Shown in pieces: positions 18,976 to 40,810 of a stretch of 64,000 bases of DNA. Under the pieces are notes generated by a model. It was given only the letters and a program-made list of their open reading frames with translations. It was not told where the DNA came from and searched no databases. Location of the stretch: assembly GCF_001440345.1 (NCBI RefSeq), contig NZ_LJYX01000006.1:1-64000 (forward strand). Direction: 5' to 3'. Source of the stretch: Colwellia sp. TT2012. Lineage in GTDB: Bacteria > Pseudomonadota > Gammaproteobacteria > Enterobacterales > Alteromonadaceae. Each line of letters opens with the position of its first letter. Within the stretch, counting starts at the first letter, position 1. A program made the translations under genes and the position numbers.

Positions 18976-18993
18976 TTCGGGCTATAGCATTAG

Positions 18994-19035
18994 AAATACA
19001 AAAAGGCTTTAGGTACAAAACCTAAATCGCAATAA
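18994..19035 (+). promoter_or_regulatory. Duplicated 42-bp hairpin leader, copy before tviB
   Basis: Hairpin TTTAGGT-ACAAA-ACCTAAA (19008-19026) within a 42-nt segment shared with 17679-17720, differing at two positions, one of them in the loop. It ends 26 nt before the tviB ATG. Confidence 0.6.
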
Positions 19036-19061
19036 TTAATTCAATTAAGAAGTGAAGTAAA

Positions 19062-20342: not shown

Positions 20343-20343
20343 A

Positions 20344-20526: not shown

Positions 20527-20540
20527 TTTTGTTTTTGAAC

Positions 20541-20571
20541 GTCATCTTCGAAGTCTCTAGTCGAAGATCCA
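20541..20571 (+). repeat. 31-bp GTCAT-hairpin-ATCCA element
   Basis: GTCAT, stem CTTCGA, loop AGTCTCTAG, stem TCGAAG, ATCCA. Perfect 6-bp stem whose sequence differs from the CCCGA-type copies while flanks and loop length are the same. Confidence 0.8.
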
Positions 20572-20624
20572 TTGTTCTTTAAGCACATGTAGATTTACCC
20601 TTAATGAGTTAATTGAGAATTAAA

Positions 20625-23631: not shown

Positions 23632-23639
23632 TATTCAAA

Positions 23640-24725
23640 ATGACAATTAAGTTAAATCAACCTTTAAAGCCTGATTTAGAAAAGCTAACTCATTACTTAA
23701 AGCAAATTAATGATAGTGGTTGGTATACAAATTTTGGCCCATTACATCAGCAATTAACTAAACGTCTAGAGGAATACCTAGGCGTTAAAAACTTACTGCT
23801 TGTTTCTAACGGCACATTAGCAATTCAAGTTGCTTGCAAAGTATTAAATATTAATTCGGCTATTACTACGCCCTTCAGTTTTGTTGCAACGACTAGTTCA
23901 CTACTATGGCAAGGAATAGAAACGGCATTCAGTGATATATCTTCAAAAAGTTATAACTTATGCCCTACAGCACTCGATAAAGCGTTAAGTGAATCAGAAA
24001 TTAGCTACGATGGGATAGTTGCGACTCATGTTTACGGCAACCCATGTGACGTAAACAGTATTGCTGCTGTAGCCAATAAACATAATAAAAAAGTGATTTA
24101 CGATGCAGCACATGCATTTTCAGTAAACGTTGAGGGGCAATCTGTACTTAACTTTGGTGACGCAAGCACATTGAGCTTTCATGCAACCAAAGTATTCCAT
24201 ACTGTTGAAGGCGGGGCTATTGTTTTCAAACATAGTGAAGACTATGAAAAAGCCAAAAGATTAATTAATTTTGGCATTCAAGCTGATGGCAGCTTGGGCG
24301 AGCCTGGTATTAACGCTAAGTTAAATGAATACCAATGTGCAGTTGGTTTAACGCTACTTGATGATATAGAAAAAGTTATAGCTCACCGTGCTCAGTTATT
24401 TCATTGTTATCGTGACGAACTTCAAGGGGTTGTTGAAATGCCTACTTGGCATAAAGACACAACCTCCAATGGTGCTTATATGCCCATTTATCTTGCTGAT
24501 GTGAACAGGCAGGAAAAAGTCATAGAAGCATTAGCTAATAATGGCATAGATAGTCGTCGTTATTTTACGCCATCGTTAGATGTCGCGTATAAGAATCAAA
24601 AAAGTTTTGGTTGTGAACAAAGTCAAAAAATAGCAGCTGGTGTTATTTGTTTGCCTCTACATGCTTATATGAGCATTGATAATGTCGCTTATATTTCGAA
24701 AATAATAAGAAAGGTTGTAAAGTGA
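23640..24725 (+). CDS. DegT/DnrJ/EryC1 sugar aminotransferase (VioA/WbtI-like)
   Basis: 361 aa. PLP enzyme that converts a keto-sugar nucleotide to an amino sugar. The PLP Lys is in SFHATKVFHTVEGG (~184), with the DAAH motif (~157) and SNGTLAIQVACK (~57) for phosphate binding. Position between rmlA and a sugar N-formyltransferase, with no RmlC, fits conversion of dTDP-4-keto-6-deoxyglucose to dTDP-4-amino-4,6-dideoxyglucose (VioA-like). A galacto product (WecE type) cannot be excluded. Its stop overlaps the next start (GTGA). Confidence 0.85.
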   Translation: MTIKLNQPLKPDLEKLTHYLKQINDSGWYTNFGPLHQQLTKRLEEYLGVKNLLLVSNGTLAIQVACKVLNINSAITTPFSFVATTSSLLWQGIETAFSDISSKSYNLCPTALDKALSESEISYDGIVATHVYGNPCDVNSIAAVANKHNKKVIYDAAHAFSVNVEGQSVLNFGDASTLSFHATKVFHTVEGGAIVFKHSEDYEKAKRLINFGIQADGSLGEPGINAKLNEYQCAVGLTLLDDIEKVIAHRAQLFHCYRDELQGVVEMPTWHKDTTSNGAYMPIYLADVNRQEKVIEALANNGIDSRRYFTPSLDVAYKNQKSFGCEQSQKIAAGVICLPLHAYMSIDNVAYISKIIRKVVK

Positions 24726-25453
24726 AAAAAGTTTTAATTGTTTCCGATAATGTAGATCTTGTTTCATGTTTTATGTTCATTACAAAAGCTATTTCAGCCA
24801 ATATTGCTCAATTTAATTATTGCTATAGTGTTATTAATAAAACACCTGATGCATTGATAACAATGGGGATGAGTGTTGTTGATATGAAAAGTCACAATGA
24901 AGTTGAAACTATTGTCGCGGAGTATGATTTAGTTATTTCGGCACATTGTAAACAGATCTTCCCCAAAGAATTAGTGAAAAAAGTGCGTTGTATTAATATT
25001 CACCCAGGGCTAAATCCCCATAATAGGGGGTGGTTTCCGCAAGTTTTTTCCATTATCAATAAGAAGCCTATTGGTTGCAGCATACATTTAATGGATGAAG
25101 AAATTGATCACGGTGACGTTATTTATCAAGAGGAAGTAAGTGTTAACTCTTGGGATACATCTATGGATGTATATAACAAAGTGGTATCTATTGAGAAAAA
25201 ATTAATACGTAAATACTTACTTGACCTAGTTAATGAAGCTTATGAATGTCAAGTTATAGAAAGTGAAGGCAATTATAACGGTATTAAAGATTTTAATGCA
25301 CTAGCTCAATTAAATCTTTCTTCAAAGGGAACGTTAGGTGAACATATAGACCTGTTGAGGGCGTTAACTCACGGTGACTTTAATAACGCATATTTTGTTG
25401 ATGACCAAGGCAATAAAGTGTTTGTAAAAATAAAACTAAATAAAGAGCAATAA
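24722..25453 (+). CDS. dTDP-4-amino-4,6-dideoxyhexose N-formyltransferase (VioF/WbtJ-like)
   Basis: 243 aa. Formyltransferase core with NIHPGLNPHNRGWFPQVF (Asn and His of the catalytic triad near 92-94) and EEIDHGDVIYQE carrying the Asp (~129). NPHNRGW and the GCSIHLMDEEIDHGD context are the pattern of dTDP-sugar N-formyltransferases, which use N10-formyl-tetrahydrofolate. The C-terminal ~60 residues form the extra domain seen in VioF-like enzymes. GTG start, overlapping the aminotransferase by 4 nt. Predicted product dTDP-Qui4NFo or its Fuc isomer. Confidence 0.85.
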   Translation: MKKVLIVSDNVDLVSCFMFITKAISANIAQFNYCYSVINKTPDALITMGMSVVDMKSHNEVETIVAEYDLVISAHCKQIFPKELVKKVRCINIHPGLNPHNRGWFPQVFSIINKKPIGCSIHLMDEEIDHGDVIYQEEVSVNSWDTSMDVYNKVVSIEKKLIRKYLLDLVNEAYECQVIESEGNYNGIKDFNALAQLNLSSKGTLGEHIDLLRALTHGDFNNAYFVDDQGNKVFVKIKLNKEQ

Positions 25454-25456
25454 ATA

Positions 25457-26974
25457 GTGTCTATTTTAAAAAAAAACATCATAGCTAATTATGCTAGCCA
25501 AATTTATGTCGCCATTGTCGGTATTGCACTACTCCCTATATATATTAAATACATGGGTAGCGAAGCGTATGGGTTAGTTGGCTTCTTTGCTATGCTACAA
25601 GCATGGTTTGGTGTATTAGATCTAGGATTAACACCCACTGTTGGTCGGGAAATGGCACGCTATAAAGGAGGTGCCTGTTCAGCATTGGCTTTTAGGCAGT
25701 TATATCGTGCATTAACAGTTATTTTTGTGATTGTGGCCGTTATTGGTGGTGCTGTGCTTTTTTTATCGTCAGAGTGGATAGCAACTCAATGGCTAAATAT
25801 AGAGAATTTACCTGTTAGTGATGTAATTATTGCCGTGCAGATTATGGCAGTGAGTGTAGCACTTCGTTGGATGACAGGCTTATATCGTGGTGTAGTTACA
25901 GGATCTGAAGAGTTAGTTTGGTTAAGTGGCTTTAATGCCATTATTGCAACGCTACGCTTTATCGGTGTGTTCGTTAGTATGTGGTATTTTGGATTTACAC
26001 CTTTGGTATTTTTCATTCATCAATTTTTTATTGCATTGATCGAAATTGTTAGTCTAGCTATAAAGTCTCAACAATTATTGCCACAAAAGAGCAGTTTCAA
26101 TGATGCTATAGGTTGGTCATTTAGCCCTATTAAATCTGTATTGAAATTTTCGCTAACCATCGCCTTTACTGCATCTGTTTGGGTGTTTGTAACGCAAACG
26201 GATAAATTAGTATTATCAGGGATATTATCCTTAGAGGATTATGGTTACTTTACATTAGCGGTATTAGTAGCTAACGGCATAATGATGATTGGTGGTCCAA
26301 TTAGTAATGCAATTATGCCTCGGATGGCTAGGTTACATGCAGAACAAAAACATGAAGAAATGATCAATGTTTATCGAAAGTCGACACAATTGGTTGCTAT
26401 TATAGCTGGCTCTGCAGCTATTACTTTAGTGGCAACAGCCGAACCATTATTAATGGCTTGGACAGGCGACTTATATTTAACAGAAAAAGTGGCTCCTATT
26501 CTACGACTATATGCTGCAGGAAACTTATTCCTATGCATTGCTGCTTTTTCATATTATTTACAATATGCAAAAGGTAATTTGAAGTATCACCTCATAGGTA
26601 ACATTGGGTTAGCTCTTATTTTAATCCCTTGCGTTATTTTTGCAGCAAGCCATTTTGGTGGTCTAGGGGCGGCTTATGTATGGTTGATTATGAATATGTT
26701 ATTTCTGTTTATATGGGTTGCTTATGTCCATCATAAGTTAGAACCTAAGCTCCATAATCGTTGGTTATGGAATGATGCAATGATAATCTTGTTACCTACC
26801 AGTTTTGTTGCTTATTTGTTATTCCTGATTGACAGTAATACTAATATTTCAGCTGGAGGAAATGAGGTCTTTACTGTAATAATTGTTGGCTTTATTGTTA
26901 TGGGGGTAGCATTGCTATTTTCAGGGCAAGCTAAATTACTGTTTATTAATAAGTTAAAAGGTTTTAGAGAGTGA
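25457..26974 (+). CDS. wzx: Oligosaccharide flippase Wzx
   Basis: 505 aa polytopic membrane protein with about 12-14 hydrophobic segments, MATE/MOP-type polysaccharide transporter. The N-terminal IIANYASQIYVAIVGIALLP and YGLVGFFAMLQAWFGVLDLGL are typical of Wzx/RfbX proteins. It flips undecaprenyl-linked repeat units to the periplasm. GTG start 3 nt after the formyltransferase stop. A Wzx in a Wza/Wzb/Wzc locus marks a Wzy-dependent pathway. Confidence 0.88.
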   Translation: MSILKKNIIANYASQIYVAIVGIALLPIYIKYMGSEAYGLVGFFAMLQAWFGVLDLGLTPTVGREMARYKGGACSALAFRQLYRALTVIFVIVAVIGGAVLFLSSEWIATQWLNIENLPVSDVIIAVQIMAVSVALRWMTGLYRGVVTGSEELVWLSGFNAIIATLRFIGVFVSMWYFGFTPLVFFIHQFFIALIEIVSLAIKSQQLLPQKSSFNDAIGWSFSPIKSVLKFSLTIAFTASVWVFVTQTDKLVLSGILSLEDYGYFTLAVLVANGIMMIGGPISNAIMPRMARLHAEQKHEEMINVYRKSTQLVAIIAGSAAITLVATAEPLLMAWTGDLYLTEKVAPILRLYAAGNLFLCIAAFSYYLQYAKGNLKYHLIGNIGLALILIPCVIFAASHFGGLGAAYVWLIMNMLFLFIWVAYVHHKLEPKLHNRWLWNDAMIILLPTSFVAYLLFLIDSNTNISAGGNEVFTVIIVGFIVMGVALLFSGQAKLLFINKLKGFRE

Positions 26975-27924
26975 ATTTAATTAAGGGCAATAATATCCCA
27001 AAGGTTACCGTTTGTGTAGTAACTTATAATCAAGAGAGTTATATAGCTAAGTGTTTACAAAGCATTGTTGATCAAATAACTGAGTTTGAATTCGAAGTTA
27101 TCGTAGGTGATGATTGTTCAACAGATAGTACTGTAGATATAATTAGAAGTTTTAAAGAGCGATATCCTAGTTTAATTAAGGTAATATTTCGTGATGCTAA
27201 TATTGGTTTTTCAAAGAATTTAATAGACCTTTATAAAAGGTCTACAGGCGAATATATTTGTCACATGGACGGTGATGATTATATGTTACCAACTAAGATA
27301 CAAAAACAATCATATGCTTTAGATACTAATAAGGAATGTGTTTTCTGTTGTCATGATGTCATTCAAGTTTCTAATACAGACTTTACACTTTTCGATAATT
27401 ATAAACCTCGAAAGCAGGGCGTTTATAATCTTATTGATTTATATAAACAATTGCCGTTTTTTGCTCATTCATCAAAAATGTTCAGGAACAATCAAGATAA
27501 TGAGTGGTGGGAGCAGTTTAATGAAAATGCTATTGATATAGAAATTCATGTAGAGCAAGCTAAGCGTGGTCATATCTTTCATATTGATGATATCCTGGGT
27601 GCCTATAGAGTTTTCACTGGCATGTCTAATGAGAAAGGGAAGCTAAACCCTATATTACCTAACGGTACAAGACGCATATTTCAAAAAGAGTTAACCAAGG
27701 GTAATAGAAGTATTCTCCCCTACTATGCCAAAGCTATGCTTGCATACTCATATCAATCAGCGGTTTTAGGTAATGCTGATGATGCGAAAAAGTATGCGCG
27801 GGAGTCTTTTCGATTAGGTTACTTTTCAAAAAAGCAATTTGTCTTTTACATATTATCTTTTGCTCCTTTCTTGCTTGTTTTCTTTTCAAAAGTTCGTAGT
27901 TCTAATCAAACTAGAAGTGTTTAA
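26971..27924 (+). CDS. Glycosyltransferase family 2
   Basis: 317 aa. GT-A fold: VTVCVVTYNQESYIAKCL (~11-28), GDDCSTDSTVDII (~46), and the metal site CHMDGDDYM (~93-101). GTG start overlapping the wzx stop by 4 nt. A C-terminal hydrophobic patch (FVFYILSFAPFLLVFF) may anchor it to the membrane. It should add one sugar to the lipid-linked repeat. Donor and linkage cannot be read from the sequence. Confidence 0.88.
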   Translation: MNLIKGNNIPKVTVCVVTYNQESYIAKCLQSIVDQITEFEFEVIVGDDCSTDSTVDIIRSFKERYPSLIKVIFRDANIGFSKNLIDLYKRSTGEYICHMDGDDYMLPTKIQKQSYALDTNKECVFCCHDVIQVSNTDFTLFDNYKPRKQGVYNLIDLYKQLPFFAHSSKMFRNNQDNEWWEQFNENAIDIEIHVEQAKRGHIFHIDDILGAYRVFTGMSNEKGKLNPILPNGTRRIFQKELTKGNRSILPYYAKAMLAYSYQSAVLGNADDAKKYARESFRLGYFSKKQFVFYILSFAPFLLVFFSKVRSSNQTRSV

Positions 27925-28101
27925 CTGCTGAATAAATTAATTGAGTTATCTATGATGTATATGAACATAATAATTATGTCTGAACATTCTATTATCGTGT
28001 TTGAGTAGCAGTATATTGTTAATTGTTACCGAACTTTATAATAAAAAAAATCTAGTACTTTTTATTGGCCGACTACCTTATAGGTGTTAAGTGACTGCAA
28101 T

Positions 28102-29268
28102 ATGATTTTTATAAAAATTATTCTATTATTCTTTATTGCCTTTGATCCGCAAGTCCCATTTTTACCTAATGGTGTTGGTTTCAGTTTTTTATCACTATGT
28201 TTTTTATTGATAGGCGGAGTGATGAAGTTAAAACACCCTGATACCAATCAGGTACTTTTATTAAGTAAGCCATATTTTTTGTTGTTCTTCTTCTGTGCCG
28301 TTTTCATTACCTTGAGGCTAATTTTAAATGGGGGTGTCAATTTTGTATTTTACCTCTCTTTTTTTAGAGCGTTTGTTACTTTTAGTTCAATTGTACTTTG
28401 GATAATTGTATTTAATGAGGACTTTAAAAAGAATAATTTTATTTATTATATTGCCATTATATATGTTTTCAACGCAGTTATTAATTTTTTAGCCGGAACA
28501 TTTCCTAATGTTTTAGGCTTTTTAGAAGTTTTTCGAGGGGTTAGCATAAGTAATGAGTTAGGAGGTAATCCTTATCGGAACTCATATATAGCTGGAGCTG
28601 GATATTATAGTATTGGTACTGCATATGGTCTCATTGCATTATTGATTAGCTTTTACATAGTTAGAGGGGAAATTAAAGGGTATGCATACCCTTTAATTTT
28701 GGGTATTGTCTCTATTTCAGGCTTTATAGCAGCTAGGACTTCTTTTTTTGCGGTTGCACCTGCTCTGTTATATCTAATTCAAGCAAGGCCGATTTACTCT
28801 GTTTACTTTACTGTTATTTTCTTCTTTTTATTAAATTTAGTAATAATGCTACCTTTACTTAATCCATATTTAGATTGGATGATGCTGTTTTTTGACTTGG
28901 AAAATAACTCATCTGCAAGCCACTTATTAAGCAAAATGTATTTTTGGCCAGGTACTGATGTTTTCTTTTATGGAAAAGGTATCATTAACGATGGCTCTAA
29001 TGCGTATACAGACGGTGGTTATATGCAAGATATTATATTTGGGGGGGTGTTTTTTTTATTATTAAAACTTTATTTTCTTGGTGTGTTTACTTTTTCGTAT
29101 TTACGTACGTATCCTTTGTTTACACTATTTGTTACTTTTTCAGTTCTTTTATTCCACTTTAAAGGGCTATTTTTATATAACAATGCTCAAGGTATGGCTG
29201 CATTTTATTTCATCTATTTCTATTTAGGCAGATTAAAAAATAGCGAGGGAGTTAAGTGCCGTTCCTAG
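28102..29268 (+). CDS. wzy: Probable O-antigen/polysaccharide polymerase (Wzy-like)
   Basis: 388 aa from ATG 28102; a GTG at 28084 is an alternative start. About ten transmembrane segments, very Phe/Leu/Ile-rich, with a larger loop between the last helices (YFWPGTDVFFYGKGIINDGSNAYTDGGY) that has the look of the Wzy periplasmic loop. Wzy proteins share little sequence, so the call rests on topology and on being the only other polytopic protein in a Wzx-containing locus. The 177-nt upstream gap is A/T-rich, with a weak TTGTTA-15-TATAAT match at 28016-28042. Confidence 0.7.
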   Translation: MIFIKIILLFFIAFDPQVPFLPNGVGFSFLSLCFLLIGGVMKLKHPDTNQVLLLSKPYFLLFFFCAVFITLRLILNGGVNFVFYLSFFRAFVTFSSIVLWIIVFNEDFKKNNFIYYIAIIYVFNAVINFLAGTFPNVLGFLEVFRGVSISNELGGNPYRNSYIAGAGYYSIGTAYGLIALLISFYIVRGEIKGYAYPLILGIVSISGFIAARTSFFAVAPALLYLIQARPIYSVYFTVIFFFLLNLVIMLPLLNPYLDWMMLFFDLENNSSASHLLSKMYFWPGTDVFFYGKGIINDGSNAYTDGGYMQDIIFGGVFFLLLKLYFLGVFTFSYLRTYPLFTLFVTFSVLLFHFKGLFLYNNAQGMAAFYFIYFYLGRLKNSEGVKCRS

Positions 29269-29349
29269 CAAATGTTGTACCCTATAATTTATATTGTTTG
29301 GTATTTATTACAGTTCGAATTATTACTTTAACCAAGAAAGAATGAATGA

Positions 29350-30318
29350 ATGAATGAATTTATAATATCTTTAGATTTTGAACTCTATTGGGGGGTTCGA
29401 GACACAAGGGGTGAAAAGTATTTTGATACATTAAAAAATGTACATAAGGTTATTCCTCAATTACTCACATTATTTGATAAATATGATGTGGCATGTACTT
29501 GGGCTACCGTTGGCGCACTTTGTGCCGAAGACTATCAAGATTTTATGCAATATACTCCTAAGCAAGTGCCTAGCTACGAAGATAAAGCATTTAGCCCTTT
29601 TAATGACTTAGGTCACTTGTCATCAATTGATAGCCAAGTGTTATTTGCCCCCAAGTTGGTCAAGGCAATAAAAAATGCAAAAAACCAAGAATTTGCTTCA
29701 CATACATTTTCTCATTATTACGCTTTAGAACAAGGGCAAACTATTGAAGAGTTTGAAGCTGATCTTAACGCTTGCTCTAATATTATTGCAAAAGAAAACA
29801 TACAGTTAAAAAGTTTAGTTTTTCCACGAAATCAGTTTAATGCTGAATACTTAAGCGTATGTAAAAAGATGGGATACACCTCTTATCGTGGTAATCCATC
29901 GCATTGGGCATATAAAGCTGAAAGCCGTGAAAACAGAAGTGTTTTTAAGCGAATTTTTAGATTGTTTGATTGCTACATTCCTGTGAGTGGCTCTTTACGC
30001 CAGCAGGTTAAATTAGACTCTGTAAGTGGCATGATTGATGTACCCGCGAGTATATTCTTCAGACCGTACAGCCCTAAGTTGAGTTGTCTTGATGGTCTAA
30101 AGTTATGGCGCTTAAAGTGGTCTATGACGCGTACTGCTAAAAAAGGTGGTGTCTTTCATCTATGGTGGCATCCACATAATTTTGGTCAGTATATGAATGA
30201 AAACTTAAAACAAATAGAGGAACTGTTAAAGCATTATCATTTTTTAAATAAAAAATATAATTTTAAGTCCCTTACTATGGAACAAGCAGCAAGCAGATTT
30301 TCAGAAGAGAATAAATGA
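29350..30318 (+). CDS. Polysaccharide deacetylase family protein (NodB-like)
   Basis: 322 aa. Carbohydrate esterase 4 pattern: SLDFELYWG (7-15) with the catalytic and metal Asp, and SHTFSHYY (~116-123) with the two metal His. A late WWHPHNFG gives another conserved His. No signal peptide, so it would act in the cytoplasm on a lipid-linked or nucleotide-linked sugar. The start lies in a four-copy AATG repeat (29342-29356); ATG 29350 is the only one of these ATGs in frame. It overlaps the following formyltransferase by 4 nt, so deacetylation and formylation may be sequential steps. Confidence 0.8.
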   Translation: MNEFIISLDFELYWGVRDTRGEKYFDTLKNVHKVIPQLLTLFDKYDVACTWATVGALCAEDYQDFMQYTPKQVPSYEDKAFSPFNDLGHLSSIDSQVLFAPKLVKAIKNAKNQEFASHTFSHYYALEQGQTIEEFEADLNACSNIIAKENIQLKSLVFPRNQFNAEYLSVCKKMGYTSYRGNPSHWAYKAESRENRSVFKRIFRLFDCYIPVSGSLRQQVKLDSVSGMIDVPASIFFRPYSPKLSCLDGLKLWRLKWSMTRTAKKGGVFHLWWHPHNFGQYMNENLKQIEELLKHYHFLNKKYNFKSLTMEQAASRFSEENK

Positions 30319-31067
30319 AAAAAATTTTAGTACTTGGGCGTAGTTCTGCATCAACACAGATGCTTATTCAATGTTTAAAAAATAACGCTTATCAAGTTAA
30401 TTGGCTTGAAGAGCGAAGAAATGATAAAAAATCACTGTTGAAGAAAAGAGTTAAAAAGCAAGGAGCCTTTAACGTACTGGGGCAATTAGTATTTTTAGTA
30501 TATCAGCGATATTTAAATATCATGAGTCATGGGCGTAAAGAAGAAATATTAAGTGACTTTGGCCTAATAGGATCTTCTACCGCCGATTTTGTTACACCCA
30601 ATGTTAATGATAATAGTGCATTCCAATACATCTCTTGTTTTAATGCCGATCTTATCGTGTTAAGTGGCACAAGAATTCTGAGTCCTAAATTGTTAGCGAG
30701 TGTAGACTGCCCAGTACTAAATATTCATGCAGGTATTAACCCTAAGTACCGAGGAGTGCATGGTGGCTATTGGGCACTGGTTAATGATGATATAGAGTAT
30801 TGTGGATCTACGATTCATCGAGTTGATGAAGGGGTCGACACTGGTGAAGTGTTTGCTTATGCAAAGATTAAGGTTACAAGCCTAGATAACTTTGTAACCT
30901 ACCCACTGTTACAGCAAAAAGCAGCTTTGGAGTTACTTCCCAGTATAATAAAGAGCTTATTTACTGGTAATTGTAAAACATTAAAAATAGAAATGGATTC
31001 TAAAATATGGACACATCCAACAATTTTTCAGTACTTATTCTATCGACTCACTCGAGGGGTTAAATAG
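30315..31067 (+). CDS. Second formyltransferase family protein
   Basis: 250 aa. The formyltransferase core is clear in the second half: NIHAGINPKYRGVHGGYW supplies Asn and His, and HRVDEGVDTGEVF the Asp. The N-terminal half differs from the VioF-like enzyme at 24722, and it lacks the long C-terminal domain of methionyl-tRNA formyltransferase. ATGA overlap with the NodB-like deacetylase links the two. Probable role: N-formylation of an amino sugar of the repeat unit. Acceptor unknown. Confidence 0.75.
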   Translation: MKKILVLGRSSASTQMLIQCLKNNAYQVNWLEERRNDKKSLLKKRVKKQGAFNVLGQLVFLVYQRYLNIMSHGRKEEILSDFGLIGSSTADFVTPNVNDNSAFQYISCFNADLIVLSGTRILSPKLLASVDCPVLNIHAGINPKYRGVHGGYWALVNDDIEYCGSTIHRVDEGVDTGEVFAYAKIKVTSLDNFVTYPLLQQKAALELLPSIIKSLFTGNCKTLKIEMDSKIWTHPTIFQYLFYRLTRGVK

Positions 31068-32200
31068 TGCGTGTTGTTCATGTATTTAGTGCTTTGTATC
31101 AAGGGGGCGCAGAAAATCAATTAGAACTATTATTAAACCAATCTTTTAGGGCTACTCCCGAAGTAAAACATATGGTTATTAGCCTGAAAAGTGAGATTAC
31201 TCCTCTGTGGAAAAGGCTAGAAAAAATGGGTGTTACTGTTTTAAGCTGTAATCTCAACTCGCCTTTAGATGTGAAAGGAATACTCAATTTAAGGCGAATG
31301 ATTTCAGCGTTTTCAGGGGAGAAAGATATAATTCAATGTTGGATGTACCATGCAAATTTTTTTTCTACTATAGCCAGTGTTGGTTTAAAAAATAATATAG
31401 TTTGGAATATACGTCGTACACAAATTCCGCAAGGAATCACAGGTTTAATAGCTAAGTTTTCAGGCTTTATGAGTTATTTATCGAAGCCTTATATTGTAAG
31501 TAACTCTTATGCTGGTTTAGATTCTCATGTCGCTGCTGGTTATAATAAATCAAGAATGAAAGTAATCCCTAATGGTTTTGACACCTCAGTTAGTATACAA
31601 GACGTTGAGGGGGGAGAAGTGTCTTACAAAGAAGATGATTCTGATTTTATATTTGGTCATGTTGGGCGTTATGCTCCAGTTAAAGGGCACCGATATATTT
31701 TTGAAGCTATAAGCATACTTGAAAAAAAATTATCTAAGGCTACCTTTGATAAAATAAAATTTGTATTTATTGGTCGCGGTGTAAGTGATGCTCAAGACTT
31801 AAAAGTATATACATCAAATTCAAAACTTATGGAAAAATGTGTTTTTTTGGGAGAAAAAGAGCACATATCCCCTTTATTACAACAATTTGATTGTTTTGTT
31901 TTACCCTCTGAAAGTGAAGGTTTTCCTAATTGTTTAGTTGAAGCTATGCTCGCTGCGAAACCTTGCGTTGCAACTGATGTTGGAGATGTAAAGTTAATAG
32001 GTGACAATGTTATTTTACTATCTTCAGCTTACTCTTCAATAGAACTAGCTAACAATATGTTAATTATATTAAATAAATCAGAGAGTGAACGTAAGGCTAT
32101 GGGTGAAAACTTGCAAATGATAGCCTCTAATAAATATTCAATTTTTGAAAGCTGGAAACAGTACTTTAATTTGTACAATAAAATTTTGGGAAATACATAG
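31067..32200 (+). CDS. Glycosyltransferase family 4 (first)
   Basis: 377 aa. GT-B fold enzyme with N-terminal FSALYQGGAENQLELLL (donor/acceptor loop) and C-terminal FGHVGRYAPVKGH, CFVLPSESEGFPNCLVEAM (EX7E-like nucleotide-sugar motif) and VATDVGDV. GTG start overlaps the previous stop by one base (TAGTG). The next gene starts 1 nt after its stop. One of three glycosyltransferases in the locus apart from the initiating enzyme. Confidence 0.88.
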   Translation: MRVVHVFSALYQGGAENQLELLLNQSFRATPEVKHMVISLKSEITPLWKRLEKMGVTVLSCNLNSPLDVKGILNLRRMISAFSGEKDIIQCWMYHANFFSTIASVGLKNNIVWNIRRTQIPQGITGLIAKFSGFMSYLSKPYIVSNSYAGLDSHVAAGYNKSRMKVIPNGFDTSVSIQDVEGGEVSYKEDDSDFIFGHVGRYAPVKGHRYIFEAISILEKKLSKATFDKIKFVFIGRGVSDAQDLKVYTSNSKLMEKCVFLGEKEHISPLLQQFDCFVLPSESEGFPNCLVEAMLAAKPCVATDVGDVKLIGDNVILLSSAYSSIELANNMLIILNKSESERKAMGENLQMIASNKYSIFESWKQYFNLYNKILGNT

Positions 32201-32201
32201 A

Positions 32202-34121
32202 ATGTGTGGTTTTGCTGGTATATGGACAAATACCTCTTCGGATATTATTAATAATAACAACTTAACCCTTATGGGCAGTAAAATCAGCAACCGAGGGCCC
32301 GATGATGAAGGTGTATGGATAAATGCGAAAGGTACTTTAGGGTTAGTACACCGCCGTCTTGCTATTGTTGATTTATCATCGGCGGGACATCAGCCTATGC
32401 TTTCGGCAAGTAAACGCTGGGTCATCGCTTTTAATGGTGAAATTTATAATCACCTTTCAATACGTAAAGAGATCGAAAGCCAAGGTGTCGTTCAATGGAA
32501 AGGACACTCTGATACTGAAACACTCTTAGCGAGTATAGAGTGCTTTGGCTTGAGCGAAACCTTAAAAAAATCAGTGGGTATGTTTGCCTTTGCATTATGG
32601 GATAACCAGGAAGAGACTCTTTACTTAGCTCGTGACCGAATGGGTGAAAAACCACTCTATTATGGTCAAGTCAACGGTCAGGTCGTTTTTGGCTCTGAAC
32701 TGACTTGCATTGAAGCCATATATGATCAAAGTAGCCTTTCTGTTGATAGAAGTGCATTGTCTCAGTTAGTTCGCCAAGGGTTTATTGTTGCACCATTAAG
32801 TATTTATAATGAAATAAAAAAACTAGAACCAGGTAAATTTATCTCCTTTAAGAATAAGGAGGTAAATATTGAGAATTATTGGTCTGTCAATAGCGTACTT
32901 CATGAGAATCAGCTTTTAGAGTTTTCCGAAGAGGAAGCCATTACCCAATTAGAGTCTTTAATTAAGCAAAGTTTATCAGGTCAAATGCTTGCTGATGTAC
33001 CTCTGGGAGCATTTCTTTCTGGTGGCGTTGACTCTTCTGTAATAGTCGCATTAATGCAGGATTTAAGTGATAAGCCAATCAAAACTTATTCTATCGGCTT
33101 TACTGATGAAAAGTATAATGAGGCCGTTTATGCAGCTGAAGTAGCTAAGCATTTAGGTACAGATCACACCGAACTTTATATCTCTGAAAAAGACATCTTA
33201 GACACGGTAAAAATTATAACGGATGTATTTAGTGAACCTTTTGGAGATTCTAGCCAATTACCTATGTATTTGGTCTGTAAAATGGCTAAAAAACACGTAA
33301 CGGTTTGCTTGTCGGGTGATGGTGGTGATGAACTTTTTTGGGGTTACAGCCGTTATCAACAAACTCTGAAAGCTTGGTCAAAGTTAAATGGTATGTCTAA
33401 TTTTACTAAGGGTGCATTAAAAGTTATCGGTAAAGCGTTACCAATAAGAGTTTTGAATAATATCGGCAGTTTGGCTATTAATCAAAAATTACTCGGCGAT
33501 AAGCTAGCTAAAGCGTTAGAGCTATTAACTGTGGATGAATATATTTTATTTTATCAAAGCTTTTTAATGGCTAGTTATAGAGATGTTGGGCAACTTGTTT
33601 TATCTGGTGATGATGGTATCCCCAAGTTTATGTTAGATGCCGATGTTATTAAAGCTTTGCCTAAAGAAGATGTTATGACATCTATTGATATGGTGACTTA
33701 CTTACCTGATGATATTTTGTGTAAAGTTGATCGTGCAGCAATGGGAGTGTCGTTAGAAGGTCGTATACCTTTGTTAGACCACCGTATAGTTGAATTCGCA
33801 CTTAAATTACCTCATAAAATTAAATATTCCCAAAATCAAACAAAGCATCCTTTGCGGGAGGTTTTGTATAAATACGTCCCTAAGAATTTAATTGAAAGAC
33901 CTAAAAAAGGTTTTTCTGTTCCATTAGGTGATTGGCTAAGACGTGAGTTAAAGGAATGGGCCGAAAACTTATTAACTCATGAGAAGTTAAATAATGATGG
34001 TTACCTAAATTCGAAGCAAGTGATGCTAATGTGGAAAGAGCACTTAACAGGTAAAAGGAATTGGGCTGCTGTTTTATGGAATATTTTAATGTTTCAGGCT
34101 TGGTTAGAGAAGCGACGTTGA
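32202..34121 (+). CDS. Glutamine-dependent amidotransferase, asparagine synthase family (AsnB/WbpS/WbtH-like)
   Basis: 639 aa. MCGFAGIW places the glutaminase nucleophile Cys2 at the very start, which fixes ATG 32202 over the longer open frame. The NRGPDDEG and FNGEIYNH motifs of the Ntn glutaminase follow. The synthetase domain has the pyrophosphate loop LSGGVDSS (~273). In glycan loci such enzymes amidate uronic acids, and here TviB/TviC predict GalNAcA as the substrate (inference). A housekeeping asparagine synthase is less likely in this position. It overlaps the next gene by one base (TGATG). Confidence 0.85.
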   Translation: MCGFAGIWTNTSSDIINNNNLTLMGSKISNRGPDDEGVWINAKGTLGLVHRRLAIVDLSSAGHQPMLSASKRWVIAFNGEIYNHLSIRKEIESQGVVQWKGHSDTETLLASIECFGLSETLKKSVGMFAFALWDNQEETLYLARDRMGEKPLYYGQVNGQVVFGSELTCIEAIYDQSSLSVDRSALSQLVRQGFIVAPLSIYNEIKKLEPGKFISFKNKEVNIENYWSVNSVLHENQLLEFSEEEAITQLESLIKQSLSGQMLADVPLGAFLSGGVDSSVIVALMQDLSDKPIKTYSIGFTDEKYNEAVYAAEVAKHLGTDHTELYISEKDILDTVKIITDVFSEPFGDSSQLPMYLVCKMAKKHVTVCLSGDGGDELFWGYSRYQQTLKAWSKLNGMSNFTKGALKVIGKALPIRVLNNIGSLAINQKLLGDKLAKALELLTVDEYILFYQSFLMASYRDVGQLVLSGDDGIPKFMLDADVIKALPKEDVMTSIDMVTYLPDDILCKVDRAAMGVSLEGRIPLLDHRIVEFALKLPHKIKYSQNQTKHPLREVLYKYVPKNLIERPKKGFSVPLGDWLRRELKEWAENLLTHEKLNNDGYLNSKQVMLMWKEHLTGKRNWAAVLWNILMFQAWLEKRR

Positions 34122-35236
34122 TGAAATTATTATTTATAGTTAATGTCGATTGGTTTTTTATTTCACATCGTTTACCCATTGCTTTAGCCGCTATGGAAAA
34201 TGGGTATGAAGTACATCTTACTTGTGGAATAACTGATCGTAAAAGTGAACTTGAAAAATTGGGGATTATTGTTCACCCACTTTCAATAAGTAGAAGTGGC
34301 ACTAGTCTCTTAAAAGAAATTAAAGTTCTTAAAGAGATGAATGCCGTGGTGAAAAAGGTTTTACCTGATGTAGTTCATTTAGTTACTATCAAAGCTGCTA
34401 TTTACGGTGGCTTAGTCACTCGATTTAAAAATATTAAAGTAAGAGTTGTCTCTATTTCGGGATTAGGCTTTGTTTTTATAGATGAAGGAATTAAAGCACG
34501 TATTCTCAGATTTTTAGTCACTAAGTTATATCGTATAGCGTTAAAGTCATCAAATACCAAAGTGATATTTCAAAACAAAAATGATAAAAATATTTTTGTT
34601 AATAATAAAATAATAAGACCCAATCAAAGTCTTATTGTCAGAGGCTCAGGAGTAGATTTAGAAACATATAAATATTTGGCGGAACCTTCAGGTGAAAAGA
34701 TTATAATGTTTTTAGCTCGCTTGTTAAAAGATAAGGGGTTAGTTGAATTTTTTGAAGCGGCAATAACGCTCAAAAAATCGGGTTTTAAAGGTAAATTTGT
34801 ATTGGTAGGGGATATAGACCTACATAACCCTAATTCAATAACGCAAAACGAATTAACTAATTATATTGACTCCGGTGCTGTAGAGCATTGGGGTTTTTCA
34901 AACAATGTAGCTGAAATAATTTCAAAGGCTCATATCATGGTACTTCCTTCGTATAGGGAGGGGTTACCGAAAAGTTTAATTGAAGCCGCTGCCTGCGGGC
35001 GAGCGGTTATTACCACCGACGTGCCTGGCTGTAGAGATGCAATAACGCCACATAAAACGGGTGTTTTAATACCCATAAAATCATCGGCGGCCATAGTGAC
35101 AGCGGTTTTAGATTTATGCGAACATGAAGTTAAAAGAAAAGAAATGGGCAAAGCGGGAAGGGCTTTAGCAGAGTCTCAATTCGACATAAATGATGTTATT
35201 ACAACGCATTTAAATTTATATAAAGGTGTTTTATGA
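34121..35236 (+). CDS. Glycosyltransferase family 4 (second)
   Basis: 371 aa from ATG 34121, which overlaps the previous TGA; the frame extends further upstream inside asnB but gives no family match. GT-B features: VDWFFISHRLPIA at the N-terminus, SGLGFVFID, FLARLLKDKGLVEFFEA and PSYREGLPKSLIEAAACGR with the EX7E motif. PglA/WbtD-like in overall pattern. It overlaps the reductase gene by 4 nt. Confidence 0.88.
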   Translation: MKLLFIVNVDWFFISHRLPIALAAMENGYEVHLTCGITDRKSELEKLGIIVHPLSISRSGTSLLKEIKVLKEMNAVVKKVLPDVVHLVTIKAAIYGGLVTRFKNIKVRVVSISGLGFVFIDEGIKARILRFLVTKLYRIALKSSNTKVIFQNKNDKNIFVNNKIIRPNQSLIVRGSGVDLETYKYLAEPSGEKIIMFLARLLKDKGLVEFFEAAITLKKSGFKGKFVLVGDIDLHNPNSITQNELTNYIDSGAVEHWGFSNNVAEIISKAHIMVLPSYREGLPKSLIEAAACGRAVITTDVPGCRDAITPHKTGVLIPIKSSAAIVTAVLDLCEHEVKRKEMGKAGRALAESQFDINDVITTHLNLYKGVL

Positions 35237-36162
35237 AAATAGCGGTTACCGGTGGCACAGGTTTTGTTGGCACTCATTTACTTAAAAAATTGAGTGAGGA
35301 AAATTTAGTTATTATCGGCAGACGAAGTGTTGCAATACCAGGTGCTACGTTTCATAAATGCACTATTGGTAATAAAACAGATTTTGGTAGTGTCTTAGAT
35401 TCAGTATCTGTTGTAGTCCACTGTGCCGCTCGAGCGCATATTATGAATGATGATGCTCAAGAGCCTTTGACTGAATTTAGAGAAGTTAATACTCATGGAA
35501 CAGTAAACTTAGCAAAACAGGCTGCTTCAGCTGGTGTTAGGCGCTTTATTTATATTAGTTCCATTAAAGTCAATGGTGAAAGTACAGAGGCAAGTAACCC
35601 TTTTCAGTATAATGATAACCATAATCCTTTAGATCCTTATGGTTTATCTAAAAGTGAAGCTGAAACTGCATTGTTTGAACTTGGCAAGAAAACAGGTATG
35701 GAGATAGTGGTTATTCGGCCACCTCTAGTTTACGGTAAAGGTGTAAAAGCGAACTTTGCCTCTTTGATGAATTTAGTTGCTAAGGGTTTACCTTTACCTT
35801 TTCGATCAATTAAAAATAACAAACGTAGTATGGTATCTGTTTATAATCTGGTTGACTTAATTGTAACTTGTATTAAGCACCCAAAGGCTGCGAATCAAGT
35901 GTTTTTGGCTTCTGATGATAATGATTTATCAACAGCTCAAATGGTTGCTTTGATGGCTAAGGTACAAGGCAAACGAAACTTTGCTCTACCTGTACCTGTT
36001 TGGCTATTTAATGTAGCCGCTAAATTACTAAATAAACAAGCTGTGGTGAATCGATTAACGGGTTCATTGCAATTAAATATAGAACACACTAAACACACTT
36101 TAAACTGGAAAGCACCATATAGCGTTGAGCATGGTTTTAAGTTATCTGTAAAAAACAAATAG
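35233..36162 (+). CDS. NAD(P)-dependent sugar reductase/epimerase (WbpV/WreQ-like)
   Basis: 309 aa. Extended [18 protein letters not shown] (~7), [18 protein letters not shown] and YGLSKSEAE with Yxxx[10 protein letters not shown] and [16 protein letters not shown] are characteristic of the group that reduces UDP-4-keto-6-deoxy-GlcNAc, the product of WbpM-type dehydratases, to UDP-QuiNAc. It lies between a glycosyltransferase and the initiating transferase, with a WbpM/PglF-type gene downstream, which supports this. A 4-epimerase role remains possible. Confidence 0.78.
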
Positions 36163-36167
36163 GATAA

Positions 36168-36725
36168 ATGATGATACGGTTGTTAGATTTTTGCTTTTCT
36201 CTTTTAGGGCTTGTATTTGCATTCCCTTTTTTTATAATTATATTCATTATAGGTTTATTTGATACGGGCTCACCTGTGTTTAGACAAGAGCGTGTTGGGA
36301 GAAATAAAAAACCTTTTACCTTAATTAAATTCAGAACTATGAAGATTGATACCGCTTCGGTAGCGAGCCATTTGGCTAGCTCTGCATCAATAACTCCCTT
36401 TGGTAGCTTCTTACGTAAAACTAAACTTGATGAATTACCACAGTTATGGAATGTATTAAAAGGGGAAATGAGTTTAGTTGGTCCCCGCCCAGGTTTATTC
36501 AATCAAGACGAATTAACGGCTGCTCGAGATATTCATGGTGTTTATTCTGTTCGTCCGGGCATCACTGGTGAGGGGCAAGTTAATGACATTGATATGTCTA
36601 CCCCTGAATTGCTGGCTGAAATTGATGCAAAGATGATCCGTGAATTAAACTTGAAGAATTATTTTAAATTTATTTTACAAACAGTAACAGGTAAAGGCTC
36701 TGGTGATCGTATTAAGGGGGCTTAG
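36168..36725 (+). CDS. Initiating sugar-1-phosphate transferase (PglC-like, monotopic)
   Basis: 185 aa, the minimal size of this family. A single N-terminal reentrant helix ([20 protein letters not shown], with its central Pro) is followed by [21 protein letters not shown] and the catalytic [22 protein letters not shown] containing the Asp-Glu dyad. It moves a sugar phosphate from UDP to undecaprenyl phosphate, starting each repeat. UDP-QuiNAc or a relative is the likely donor from context. A remnant of an aminotransferase gene follows. Confidence 0.9.
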
Positions 36726-36841
36726 TTCTAGTTCAGTCACTATTTAGGTGGTTTTTAGTTCATCCAACTTTGACTCAGGCTGAAGTTGAGAAAATGGCTA
36801 GTGTGATTAAGGAAGTGTTTGCTTTGGCAAGTAAAGGGTAA
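36722..36841 (+). pseudogene. Remnant of a DegT-type aminotransferase (C-terminal end)
   Basis: A 39-codon open frame without a plausible start ends in VHPTLTQAEVEKMASVIKEV plus a short tail and TAA. This resembles the conserved C-terminus of sugar aminotransferases (typically HPTLS-x-E near the end). It begins right at the end of the PglC-like gene. In PglF/PglE/PglC systems an aminotransferase (PglE) sits in this neighbourhood, so this may be what is left of one after deletion. Short match, so moderate confidence. Confidence 0.5.
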
Positions 36842-36854
36842 TGAATGCTTAAGT

Positions 36855-36984
36855 GATGCGCGAATAAATTTCTAAGAGATGCGCGAATGAATTCCCGCCT
36901 ACGGGGCGAATGAATTTCTAAGAGATGCGCGAATAAATTCCCGCCTACAGGGCTGGATTCCTGACAAGAAACTTCGGGAATGAC
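36855..36984. repeat. REP-like copies and a GTCAT-type hairpin
   Basis: Left-facing REP-like copies at 36881-36902 and 36927-36948, with partial copies (GCGCGAATAAATTTC near 36858; GCGAATGAATTTC near 36905). They are followed at 36954-36984 by a 31-bp hairpin element in minus orientation: GTCAT, TCCCGA, 9-nt loop, TCAGGA (one mismatch), ATCCA. Confidence 0.85.
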
Positions 36985-37251: not shown

Positions 37252-39204
37252 GTGTCTTTGATTAAGTCTGTTTTGGGTTTACCGCGGCCATATAAACGCG
37301 CCATCTCGTTGTTAATAGATTCAGTATTTTTATTTTGTGCTTTTTGGTTAGCGTTCCTTATGCGCCTAGAAAGCTTCTCTCCTTTATTTAACCCCGATTA
37401 TTGGCTCATTTTTGCCTGCGTTTTACCGCTAAGTTTATTAGCTTTTGTAAAATTAGGACTGTATCGTGCCGTTTTTCGCTATATGAATATGCAAGCGGTA
37501 TCGGCAATCGTCGCGGGTAGTTTTATTTCTGCGATGCTTTTTATTTTATTTTCCTTCGTATTCACTACGTGGGCTCCTAGAACCGTACCCTTTATCTTCA
37601 TGTGTCTTTGTCTGATATTTGTTGGTGGCTCAAGATTATTTGTGCGGATGTTAATAGGCCACCAGCGCTGGCATAAAAAATCTTCGGTATTAATTTATGG
37701 TGCGGGCTCGTCAGGCAGACAACTGGCAACGGCATTAACACAAGGGCCAGAATATCATGCCGTGGCTTTTATTGATGATGATAGCGCATTGCATGGGCAT
37801 AATATTCAAGGTTTACGGGTGTATTGTGCTGATGAAATCCCGGAACTGCTGGCAACGAACAAAGTAGAAAAAATACTATTGGCCATGCCTAGTGCTTCAA
37901 GGGCGCGGCGCAAAATAGTATTAAGTAAAATTGATTCACTTGGCGTGCAAGTATTAACGATTCCGGGTATGGCTGATATCGTGGAAGGAAAAACAAAACT
38001 TGAAGAGTTTAAAGATGTGGGTGTTGAAGATTTATTAGGGCGTGATGCGGTTGCCCCTAAAGCTGACTTAATGAATGCTGATATTGCTGGTAAAGTGGTT
38101 ATGGTTACTGGCGCGGGTGGCTCTATTGGCTCTGAGTTATGTCGTCAAATTATACAATTAAAACCGACTAAACTGGTCTTGTTCGATTTATCAGAATTTG
38201 CTTTATATACCATTGATAAAGAGCTTAATGAGTTTAAGCACGCGCATGACTTAACTGTGGATATATTTCCGCTTATAGGCTCAGTGCAAAGAGTGAATCG
38301 CATTGAAACTGTGATGAAAAGCTTTGCCGTACAAACGGTGTACCATACTGCAGCATACAAACATGTGCCCTTAGTTGAGCTAAATGTTGTTGAAGGTGTT
38401 AGAAATAATATATTTGGAACTTACCGTGCTGCCAGGGCCGCTATTAATGCCAAGGTAGCGACCTTTGTGCTGATTTCTACCGATAAAGCGGTAAGGCCTA
38501 CCAATATAATGGGTACTACTAAACGTATGGCTGAGTTGATTTTGCAAGCGTTAGCTAAAACCCAAGATTCGACCCGTTTTTGTATGGTGCGTTTTGGTAA
38601 TGTTTTAGGCTCTTCTGGTTCGGTAGTGCCACTGTTTAGAAAACAAATTCGTGCTGGCGGTCCAGTGACCTTAACGCATCCTGAGATTACTCGTTACTTT
38701 ATGACTATTCCGGAAGCTGCTCAGCTAGTTATTCAAGCGGGCGCTATGGGTAAAGGCGGTGACGTTTTTGTCTTAGATATGGGCGATTCAGTTAAAATAA
38801 TTGACTTGGCTAGTAAAATTATTCACTTAAGCGGCTACTCTATTAAAGATGCACAAAACCCTGAAGGTGATATTGAGATAAAATGTACCGGCCTTAGACC
38901 CGGTGAAAAACTTTATGAAGAGCTATTAATTGGTGATAACGTTACTGGTACTAACCATGAACGTATTATGTCAGCACAAGAAGTTATGCTTGACTGGCAT
39001 GAGTTAGAGCCACTGTTAGATAAGCTTGATAATGCCTGCCATGAGTTTGATCATGAGTTAATTCGTGAGATATTACTTAAGGCGCCAACAGGATTTAATC
39101 CTACCGATGGTATTTGTGATTTGGTTTGGCAACAGAATGAACAACAGCCGTTAAAAACTGCTGACATTATTGAATTGAAAGTGGCTAACTCCCCAGTGAA
39201 TTAG
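37252..39204 (+). CDS. Membrane-bound nucleotide-sugar 4,6-dehydratase (WbpM/PglF/CapD family)
   Basis: 650 aa, the long membrane form. Four N-terminal transmembrane segments (~15-130) are followed by a first Rossmann-like domain (LIYGAGSSGRQLATAL, ~148) and the catalytic SDR domain (GAGGSIGSELCRQI, ~287). The active-site block STDKAVRPTNIMGTTKR carries Met-Lys in place of YxxxK, as in PglF/WbpM. It makes UDP-4-keto-6-deoxy-GlcNAc for the WbpV-like reductase. GTG start with AAGGAAG 5 nt upstream. The TAG stop abuts a REP array. Confidence 0.93.
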   Translation: MSLIKSVLGLPRPYKRAISLLIDSVFLFCAFWLAFLMRLESFSPLFNPDYWLIFACVLPLSLLAFVKLGLYRAVFRYMNMQAVSAIVAGSFISAMLFILFSFVFTTWAPRTVPFIFMCLCLIFVGGSRLFVRMLIGHQRWHKKSSVLIYGAGSSGRQLATALTQGPEYHAVAFIDDDSALHGHNIQGLRVYCADEIPELLATNKVEKILLAMPSASRARRKIVLSKIDSLGVQVLTIPGMADIVEGKTKLEEFKDVGVEDLLGRDAVAPKADLMNADIAGKVVMVTGAGGSIGSELCRQIIQLKPTKLVLFDLSEFALYTIDKELNEFKHAHDLTVDIFPLIGSVQRVNRIETVMKSFAVQTVYHTAAYKHVPLVELNVVEGVRNNIFGTYRAARAAINAKVATFVLISTDKAVRPTNIMGTTKRMAELILQALAKTQDSTRFCMVRFGNVLGSSGSVVPLFRKQIRAGGPVTLTHPEITRYFMTIPEAAQLVIQAGAMGKGGDVFVLDMGDSVKIIDLASKIIHLSGYSIKDAQNPEGDIEIKCTGLRPGEKLYEELLIGDNVTGTNHERIMSAQEVMLDWHELEPLLDKLDNACHEFDHELIREILLKAPTGFNPTDGICDLVWQQNEQQPLKTADIIELKVANSPVN

Positions 39205-39515
39205 TAGGCGGGATTTCAATCGCGCTTTTTGTAGGATTTCAATCGTGCATTTTTGAAATCGCGAACAGGTATTAGCGCGAATAAATTCCCGCTTACGGGT
39301 TACGGGTGTATGTAGGCGGGATTTCAATCGCGCATTTTGTAGGATTTCAATCACGCATTTTTGAAGGCGTGACCAGGTATTGGCGCGAACAAGTTCCCGC
39401 TTACGGGGTACGGGTGTATGTAGGCGGGATTTCAATCGCGTATTTTGTAGGATTTCAATCGTGCATTTTTGAAGGCGTGACCAGGTATTGGCGCGAACAA
39501 GTTCCCGCTTACAGG
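39204..39515 (+). repeat. 108-bp tandem repeat of composite REP units
   Basis: Units start at 39204, 39312 and 39420 (period 108 bp, ~2.9 copies). Each has a right-facing GGCGGGATTTCAATCGCG arm, an internal TAGGATTTCAATCG half-copy, a GCATTTTTGAA spacer and a left-facing arm (GCGCGAAYAARTTCCCGCTTAC) that is its inverted partner. The first unit overlaps the stop of the dehydratase gene. Together with 40024-40325 it flanks the RAYT gene. Confidence 0.93.
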
Positions 39516-39528
39516 GCATATTTCCCTT

Positions 39529-39984
39529 TTATTTTAAATAAATACAATCCCAGAAGGCATAATTACTAATATTGTCAACCAAGCCTGCTCTTAAGGGGTT
39601 GGCAACAATATATCTTGCTTGATTAATTAGATCGTCTTCACTCTTTATATGATGTTCGTAATAATCAGCTTGCCATACTTTACCTTGTTTACTTTTTTGT
39701 ATGTTGATCGCTTGTGCACTTCGTCCTTTCATACGTTTCATTACTTCTGCGAGAGAATATCTTTCTAATAATTGAAACTGCCAATGTAGGTGATCTGGCA
39801 TTAGTGTATAGCAGATAGTTTTGAGAGCCTGCTCATCTTCGAGTTTTAATAATTGAAGAATAACTAGTTGTGCGCTTGCTAGCTCAGTGAAAATTCGCTC
39901 TCTATTGTTTGTTATACAAGTTATAGCCTAATAATGAAAAGGCTGAGATATTCTGCCTTTTCGTAAAAGATGAGAGCGACGCAT
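39529..39984 (-). pseudogene. REP-associated tyrosine transposase (RAYT, Y1 family) with one in-frame amber codon
   Basis: Reading from ATG 39984 gives 151 codons to TAA 39529, interrupted only by TAG at codon 19 (39928-39930). Before the stop: MRRSHLLRKGRISQPFHY; after it: AITCITNNRERIFTELASAQ. The Y1/HUH metal motif is HLH in MPDHLHWQF (H65, H67), and the nucleophile Tyr is probably Y125 in QARYIVANPLRAGLV, a RAYT hallmark. The rest of the frame is intact. The stop replaces what is probably Tyr or Trp in the first beta strand. Internal start at 39801 would remove that strand but keep both motifs. REP arrays on both sides are the presumed substrates. Confidence 0.85.
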
Positions 39985-40023
39985 AATAAATCCATTTATT
40001 TAATCGTTATATAAGTTTAGTTT

Positions 40024-40325
40024 ATGTAGGCGGGATTTCAATCACGATTTTTGGCATCGTGCATTTTTGAAATTGCGCATTTTTGAAGGCGAGAACAGGT
40101 ATTGGCGCGAATAAATTCCCGCTTTTTGGAATCGTGAATTTTTGGAATCGCGAACAGGTATTGGCGCGAATAAATTCCAGCATTTTTGAAGGCGCGAACA
40201 AGTTCCCGCTTACGGGTTACGGATCTTTATGTAGGCGGGATTTTAATCGCGCATTTGTGAAGTTCCCGCTTACGGGTATATGTGAAGGTGCGAACAGTAT
40301 TGGCGCGAATAAATTCCCGCCTACA
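40024..40325. repeat. REP-like repeat cluster right of the RAYT
   Basis: About ten full or partial arms in both orientations, e.g. GGCGGGATTTCAATCACG (40027), GGCGCGAATAAATTCCCGC (~40104), TAGGCGGGATTTTAATCGCG (~40232) and GCGCGAATAAATTCCCGCC (~40305). The GCATTTTTGAAGGCG spacer is shared with the 108-bp units. The last arm ends at the stop of the minus-strand glycine-zipper gene. No coding potential. Confidence 0.9.
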
Positions 40326-40327
40326 GA

Positions 40328-40810
40328 TTAAAACTGTTTATCTATTCTGACATTGCCGTTGGCAAGGTAAATCATTCTTACTGCATCTTGGCGATGAAAA
40401 ACCATCTGTTGATCATAGTCTTGAATCACCATAAATTGCTGGCAGTGTTGTTCGGCACAATCAAGCTCTATCATTAATTCTACTAGGCGGATAACGACCG
40501 TTTTATCTTGGCTACGATTGTTGGCGATAGAACCACCAATAACCGCGCCTAGTACTGTTGCTATATCACGGCCACTACCACCACCAAATTGATTTCCAAT
40601 GGCGCCGCCAATCAATGCGCCACCAAAGGTTTTCCAAGCGCTATTTTTATCTTGTATTAACTCTTGCAGACTAATGTTTCTAGTCGAGATTACTGTACCA
40701 AAAAGTACTTTTTCAACCGGTACGGCTTTGTTTCTGTCATAGTCGGCGGTAGCTGAATGACTAATGAACAGTATCAATAGGGTTAAGCTTGTTAATAATA
40801 GCGATTTCAT
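40328..40810 (-). CDS. Glycine-zipper outer-membrane/periplasmic protein
   Basis: 160 aa. Signal peptide (MKSLLLTSLTLLILFISHSATA), then a glycine zipper that could insert in a membrane: FGGALIGGAIGNQFGGGSG and TVLGAVIGGSIANN (~62-96), as in SlyB/17-kDa-antigen-like proteins. No lipobox Cys. A C-terminal beta-rich part contains two Cys (CAEQHC). Last gene of the lpoB operon, 31 nt after LpoB; role probably in envelope integrity (inference). Confidence 0.75.
   Translation of the reverse strand: MKSLLLTSLTLLILFISHSATADYDRNKAVPVEKVLFGTVISTRNISLQELIQDKNSAWKTFGGALIGGAIGNQFGGGSGRDIATVLGAVIGGSIANNRSQDKTVVIRLVELMIELDCAEQHCQQFMVIQDYDQQMVFHRQDAVRMIYLANGNVRIDKQF

Follow-up and report, generated by a model that had tools for sequence, protein, structure and literature searches.

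The window analysed here, 64,000 nucleotides of a contig of Colwellia sp. TT2012, very probably contains a REPtron, a single-copy RAYT (TnpA-REP) gene set among GTAG-type REPs, and the RAYT of this REPtron would be a null allele. Translation would halt after 18 residues, within the N-terminal part of the Y1 domain, and since the HUH motif and the single catalytic tyrosine are both encoded in the RAYT DNA 3' of the stop, neither would be present in any protein. Intact relatives of the gene most likely mobilise the same GTAG REPs, intact copies presumably acting on them as the TnpA-REP of E. coli acts on its own, by GTAG-guided single-strand cleavage. In the window genome the copying of REPs in trans has probably ceased and the REPs that remain would mostly be inherited, whilst the block that carries the RAYT appears to have moved between species prior to the origin of the stop.

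Taken alone, a RAYT interrupted by one stop codon is nothing unusual; RAYT pseudogenisation, RAYT fragments in REP arrays and the clustering of REPs near RAYTs have all been published already, and our search of the literature for tnpAREP stop codons found none. What this locus provides is a matched set within one genus, with a shared REP family and a shared locus, where the RAYT is apparently dead in one species and intact in two relatives. PMC8049555 itself states that its model for the persistence of REPINs lacks the loss and gain of RAYTs, and the matched set could supply data on them.

The interrupted RAYT frame

The RAYT frame starts with an ATG at 39984-39982 and ends with a stop at 39531-39529 on the minus strand (Table 1), and besides the TAG it has neither a further stop nor an indel, the other 150 codons being open. 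The first-pass annotation had described a near-complete Y1/HUH transposase with HLH at codons 65-67, broken solely by a TAG at codon 19, and this was borne out in each respect, the strand, unstated there, being minus; Tyr125 was also rightly picked out, although it sits in RYIVANP, directly ahead of NPLRAG (129), and not in the NPLRAG block itself. The 90-aa tail that follows from the internal ATG scores by itself 92.3 bits against NCBIfam NF047646 REP_Tyr_transpos (curated cut-off 80), a model to which the intact orthologues score 127.9 and 129.7 bits, and 33 bits against Pfam Y1_Tnp (cut-off 23). Furthermore, the orthologue in C. piezophila matches TnpA-REP in the PDB by sequence (4er8, E 3.1e-8, residues 24-144). 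An IS200/IS605 transposase was considered and rejected, as NF033573 gave 23.1 bits for the tail and 32.8 and 33.8 bits for the intact orthologues against a cut-off of 55. Because of the TAG the gene cannot be translated at full length here, whereas it is intact in two orthologues. A scan for promoters and terminators gave matches no more numerous than in shuffles.

Table 1. Positions of the RAYT, its motifs and the surrounding REPs in the window
Feature	Position	Strand	Remarks
RAYT (TnpA-REP) frame	39529..39984	-	151 codons and stop; one in-frame TAG
In-frame TAG, codon 19	39928..39930	-	sense codon in 39/39 other aligned RAYTs with sequence there
HLH (HUH motif), codons 65-67	39784..39792	-	from sequence; downstream of TAG
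Tyr125, presumed nucleophile, in RYIVANPLRAG	39610..39612	-	from sequence; downstream of TAG
REP array 3' of RAYT, three 108-bp direct repeats	39204..39527		exact REPs 39204, 39312, 39420 (+); one-mismatch REP 39276 (-)
REP mosaic 5' of RAYT	about 40026..40330		one-mismatch REP 40026 (+); exact REPs 40231 (+), 40304 (-)
Rest of REP island, 12 exact REPs	424..36948		424, 453, 6564, 9281, 17621, 18879, 18954, 20385, 20425, 20505, 36882, 36928
Candidate exchange block: RAYT, leader and upstream REP	39522..40046	-	close alignment across three species with sharp edges; approximate

In the window genome (4,420,600 bases in 223 contigs) a search for other RAYT copies, as the first-pass annotation had proposed, returned as its sole further match a remote one of 29% identity that has its own TGA, and there is thus a single RAYT copy for this REP type; C. 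piezophila, unlike the window genome, has a second, truncated copy. Intact orthologues, each 93% identical to the window RAYT, are found at the same locus in two relatives, flanked on at least one side by the same neighbour genes. The first of these relatives (G006) shares identical RAYT DNA with C. marinimaniae MTCD1 and the second (G008) an identical locus of 3453 bases with C. piezophila ATCC BAA-637, and these are very likely the strains concerned. Within the genus 20 of 39 Colwellia genomes, the window genome included, have a RAYT match at E <= 0.001, with 33 matches that are mostly remote, and in a sample of the family matches at E <= 1e-25 are spread patchily over 30 of 196 genomes and 14 of 52 genera.

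An alignment with other RAYTs had likewise been proposed, and comprised 42 RAYT rows, two of which are empty at codon 19 as their loci are short; every other row that is not blank at this position shows a sense codon, and on this ground the idea that the amber codon is programmed or conserved was rejected. The homologues possess the first 60 residues, so the old fragment that their general absence would have indicated is not what is seen. Internal stops occur in 3/35 RAYT matches of the family sample and 4/33 of the genus, and in the five other stop-bearing matches that were checked they fall at query positions 14, 116, 104, 43 and 89, the last two being those of family RAYTs with one in-frame stop each (L121 in G162 and L128 in G173). 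As these stops lie elsewhere in the frame, loss of the RAYT is recurrent and codon 19 is not special.

REP hairpins and their distribution

In the REP unit (GCGGGAATTTATTCGCGC and variants) an imperfect hairpin comes after GTAG, and the four variants that were typed in the window and the genome all fold with GTAG ahead of two short stems that enclose a mismatch, with z of -2.8 to -3.6. Where the variants differ the differences are paired (GAAT/ATTC, GATT/AATC, GAAC/GTTC). Exact matches to the pattern number 32 in the genome, of which 17 fall in the window, against 0 for a reversed control pattern, and none of the 17 lies inside an ORF of at least 150 aa, one of them overlapping the stop codon of a CapD-like gene by one base. 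At two places the GTAG of a REP overlaps or abuts the TAG stop of the preceding gene (FtsX-like at 6491-6494, CapD-like at 39202-39207). The RAYT is enclosed by REP arms of inverted orientation, one at 39199-39225 and one at 40303-40329, and there are REP arrays on both sides of it, as had been noticed at the outset. The related elements, which were said to be scattered through the window, are so in its left part and are lacking from the rest, all 17 being within the first 40.3 kb. To call the RAYT the resident mobiliser of the REP family, as was done earlier, seems reasonable from its identity, from the REPs that bracket it and because it is the only close copy. Two tandem repeats were also observed in the window, a perfect 13-bp repeat of 3.7 copies at 9391-9438 and a 50-bp repeat of 2.5 copies with 97% match at 49739-49865, the latter apparently not of the GTAG REP family.

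More than half of the exact REPs of the genome (17/32) thus fall within the initial 40.3 kb of contig 1, and when REPs within 500 bp are merged the region holds 9 of 18 sites, where a uniform spread would give 0.16 (binomial P 2e-14); with up to two mismatches allowed it holds 9 of 26 sites (P 1e-12). A polysaccharide locus lies in this REP-rich region, its genes being named from a reading of the ORFs alone. In C. piezophila 32 of 54 exact REPs are on C2:496-585 kb around the RAYT, and in C. marinimaniae 16 of 44 are on C8:23-67 kb. Concentration near the closest RAYT is not universal, with 3/26 in G015 and 3/17 in G027, and in G017 9/20 exact REPs are on the contig of the polysaccharide locus (C14, L106-L108), the RAYTs of that genome, 38-39% identical, being on another contig.

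The exact REPs as a share of all REPs with up to two mismatches come to 32/53 in the window genome, 44/78 in C. marinimaniae, 54/108 in C. piezophila, 26/63 in G015, 20/36 in G017 and 17/45 in G027, and the reversed control is 0 in all of these genomes except for 1 in G015. The REPs of the window genome are therefore no more degraded than those of C. marinimaniae with its intact RAYT, so that the loss of activity would as yet have left no visible trace. As a clock for the loss REP decay was rejected as uninformative, since the two-mismatch class includes a subfamily with paired changes besides the decayed copies. Outside the island five REP sites were queried, and all three that could be compared with C. 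marinimaniae carry REPs there, as do both that could be compared with C. piezophila, one of them degraded; judged by this comparison of sites, the REPs outside the island look inherited. For the other two of the five, both on C103, the flank aligned to the first site. At this place in the window genome (G000:C103:339800-349200, L143) a stretch of about 1.35 kb with a REP pair in it seems to have been duplicated within 7 kb, and both halves align to one single site in C. marinimaniae and in C. piezophila.

The locus resembles the REPtrons with GTAG REPs described by Nunvar 2010 (PMC2817692), Di Nocera 2013 (PMC3733652) and PMC6006769 in the features that those accounts give, namely REPs in both orientations, a single full-length copy and REPs near the gene, and departs from the published REPtrons in the one stop at codon 19. 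For Thauera and for three gammaproteobacteria of marine origin Nunvar 2010 describes REPs concentrated near the RAYT, and the Thauera EPS genes are described in PMC3733652 as flanked by GTAG-1 REP arrays, which is comparable to the crowding of REPs at a polysaccharide locus here, although in the window the REPtron itself is at the edge of the locus. The E. coli TnpA-REP (4er8) has in common with the window RAYT a Y1 fold, by the sequence match given above, a single tyrosine and a REP stem with a mismatch, whilst the identity between the two is low. In the model of RAYT loss as outlined in Nunvar 2013 (PMC3686654) the RAYT is pseudogenised and the REPs are left to decay, and the window genome would differ from this in that such decay is not yet visible. 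In the literature that a search returned, which concerned Pseudidiomarina, the REP family of the window is not described for Colwellia.

How the stop is to be explained

It had been suggested that the RAYT may still be made, either through read-through of the amber codon or by initiation at the internal ATG (39801, codon 62), and we regard it as very improbable that it is so made and keeps working. The frame does stay open beyond the TAG, bacteria commonly show a low background of UAG read-through, and natural read-through in trace amounts may occur. However, the search for a suppressor tRNA that had been proposed found no tRNA that reads UAG: none of 76 matches to the Rfam tRNA model has a CTA anticodon (ARAGORN, 36 loci), the Rfam search having scored 150 of 311 first-look candidates so that a very unusual tRNA might escape it, and among eight candidates for a loose anticodon-loop pattern there is no suppressor, seven being without a tRNA and one being a tRNA-Arg(tct) with its neighbours. 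The stop at codon 19, moreover, is in no other RAYT examined. A start at 39801 is equally unsupported, as Met62 is the methionine of the MPDHLH motif and invariant in an alignment of five sequences, with no Shine-Dalgarno-like or purine-rich stretch seen ahead of it, whereas the ATG at codon 1 has a GGA upstream at a suitable spacing, as it has in the relatives; a product from Met62 would also miss the first 61 of 151 residues. With no CTA tRNA and with Met62 placed inside a motif and lacking a Shine-Dalgarno-like stretch, read-through or internal start would overall seem unlikely.

The null allele is also preferred to an error of sequencing or assembly in a gene that is really intact, which is improbable. 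That there is one lesion only, that the genome is a draft of 223 contigs and that the RAYT is intact in both close relatives speak for such an error, but the TAG is well within a contig of 1,038,875 bases, single-base errors are rare in short-read assemblies, and the other changes of the window copy lean towards the non-synonymous. Omega (NG86) is 0.26 between the window copy and C. marinimaniae, 0.29 between it and C. piezophila, and 0.14 between the two relatives. By hand count with the codon table 11 codons are changed in the window copy only (the stop, seven non-synonymous and three synonymous), the other two branches have 6 non-synonymous and 10 synonymous differences, and one further synonymous difference is not placeable. 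The contrast between seven non-synonymous changes plus the stop to three synonymous and 6:10 is not significant (Fisher P 0.12); 7 of 10 changes being non-synonymous has a probability of 0.25 if neutral and of 0.03 at the ratio of the other branches. The changes on the branch of the window copy would accordingly be read as leaning towards relaxed constraint.

The single lesion had been taken to suggest that the loss is young, and whilst it holds that there are no other stops or indels, this says little on age, since with only 11 changed codons the chance of no second stop if neutral is about 0.55. That the RAYT is instead an old fragment retained within a REP array is extremely improbable, for whilst such fragments exist, as the second copy of C. 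piezophila and the four cases in Nunvar 2010 (PMC2817692) where the 3' ends of RAYTs are described inside REP arrays, the window RAYT is full length with its other codons open and is 93% identical to intact orthologues.

Possible exchange of the RAYT block between species

When the window RAYT is set against that of C. piezophila, 9 of 97 synonymous sites differ (dS 0.10), as compared with a pooled pS of 0.51 (2847/5572) and dS of 0.14 to 2.07 for 20 window genes, which were alignable genes chosen by the analyst, the MCP gene being left out as it has no match in the C. piezophila stretches. The lowest dS among the 20 is that of rplE (0.141), a ribosomal protein gene, for which a strong codon bias is to be expected. 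At the pooled rate the binomial probability for the RAYT is 6e-18, a figure that ignores the variation in rate among genes. For the RAYT the three species are about equally far from one another (0.11, 0.10 and 0.12), whereas in the flanking genes the window genome and C. marinimaniae are close and C. piezophila is distant; between the first two dS is 0.04 to 0.22 in the eight genes that lie right of the RAYT and 0.58 in one gene at the extreme left end. The conserved block spans the untranslated leader, and its edges are at the upstream REP and just beyond the stop codon. As the RAYT block is far closer to that of C. piezophila than its flanks are, the simplest interpretation is that exchange took place at the same site, and these pairwise distances among three species, with one genome each, suggest that the block was exchanged laterally with the C. 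piezophila lineage.

One could go further and propose, tentatively and as something rather doubtful, that REP arrays are shared landing pads at which about 0.5 kb of RAYT plus one REP is replaced between species, at a fixed site and by recombination, whilst the neighbouring genes and the dispersed REPs descend vertically. RAYTs would, if this is true, be maintained because dead alleles, such as that of the window, are replaced again and again, and would not descend strictly vertically. The transfer of RAYTs between species is already among the proposals made in PMC6006769 and PMC3686654; the new element, if confirmed, would be replacement at one site with edges in the REP arrays, which would refine the view of a vertical-only inheritance of RAYTs.

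The C. marinimaniae locus (G006:C8:38000-43600, L098), when compared with 36000-40330 of the window, has a different neighbour on the polysaccharide side, with no CapD-like match in the stretches examined, and is collinear on its other side with 88-99% protein identity, the REPtron being placed where swapped DNA meets conserved DNA. Finally, the second RAYT copy of C. piezophila (L030, about 1500-1860), some 9 kb away from the full copy, starts at a CTAC, the reverse of GTAG, across codons 66-67, where it is joined to a complete REP hairpin, and it agrees with the full copy of that genome at 250/258 positions; this single junction could stem from RAYT chemistry at GTAG or from microhomology that arose by chance.
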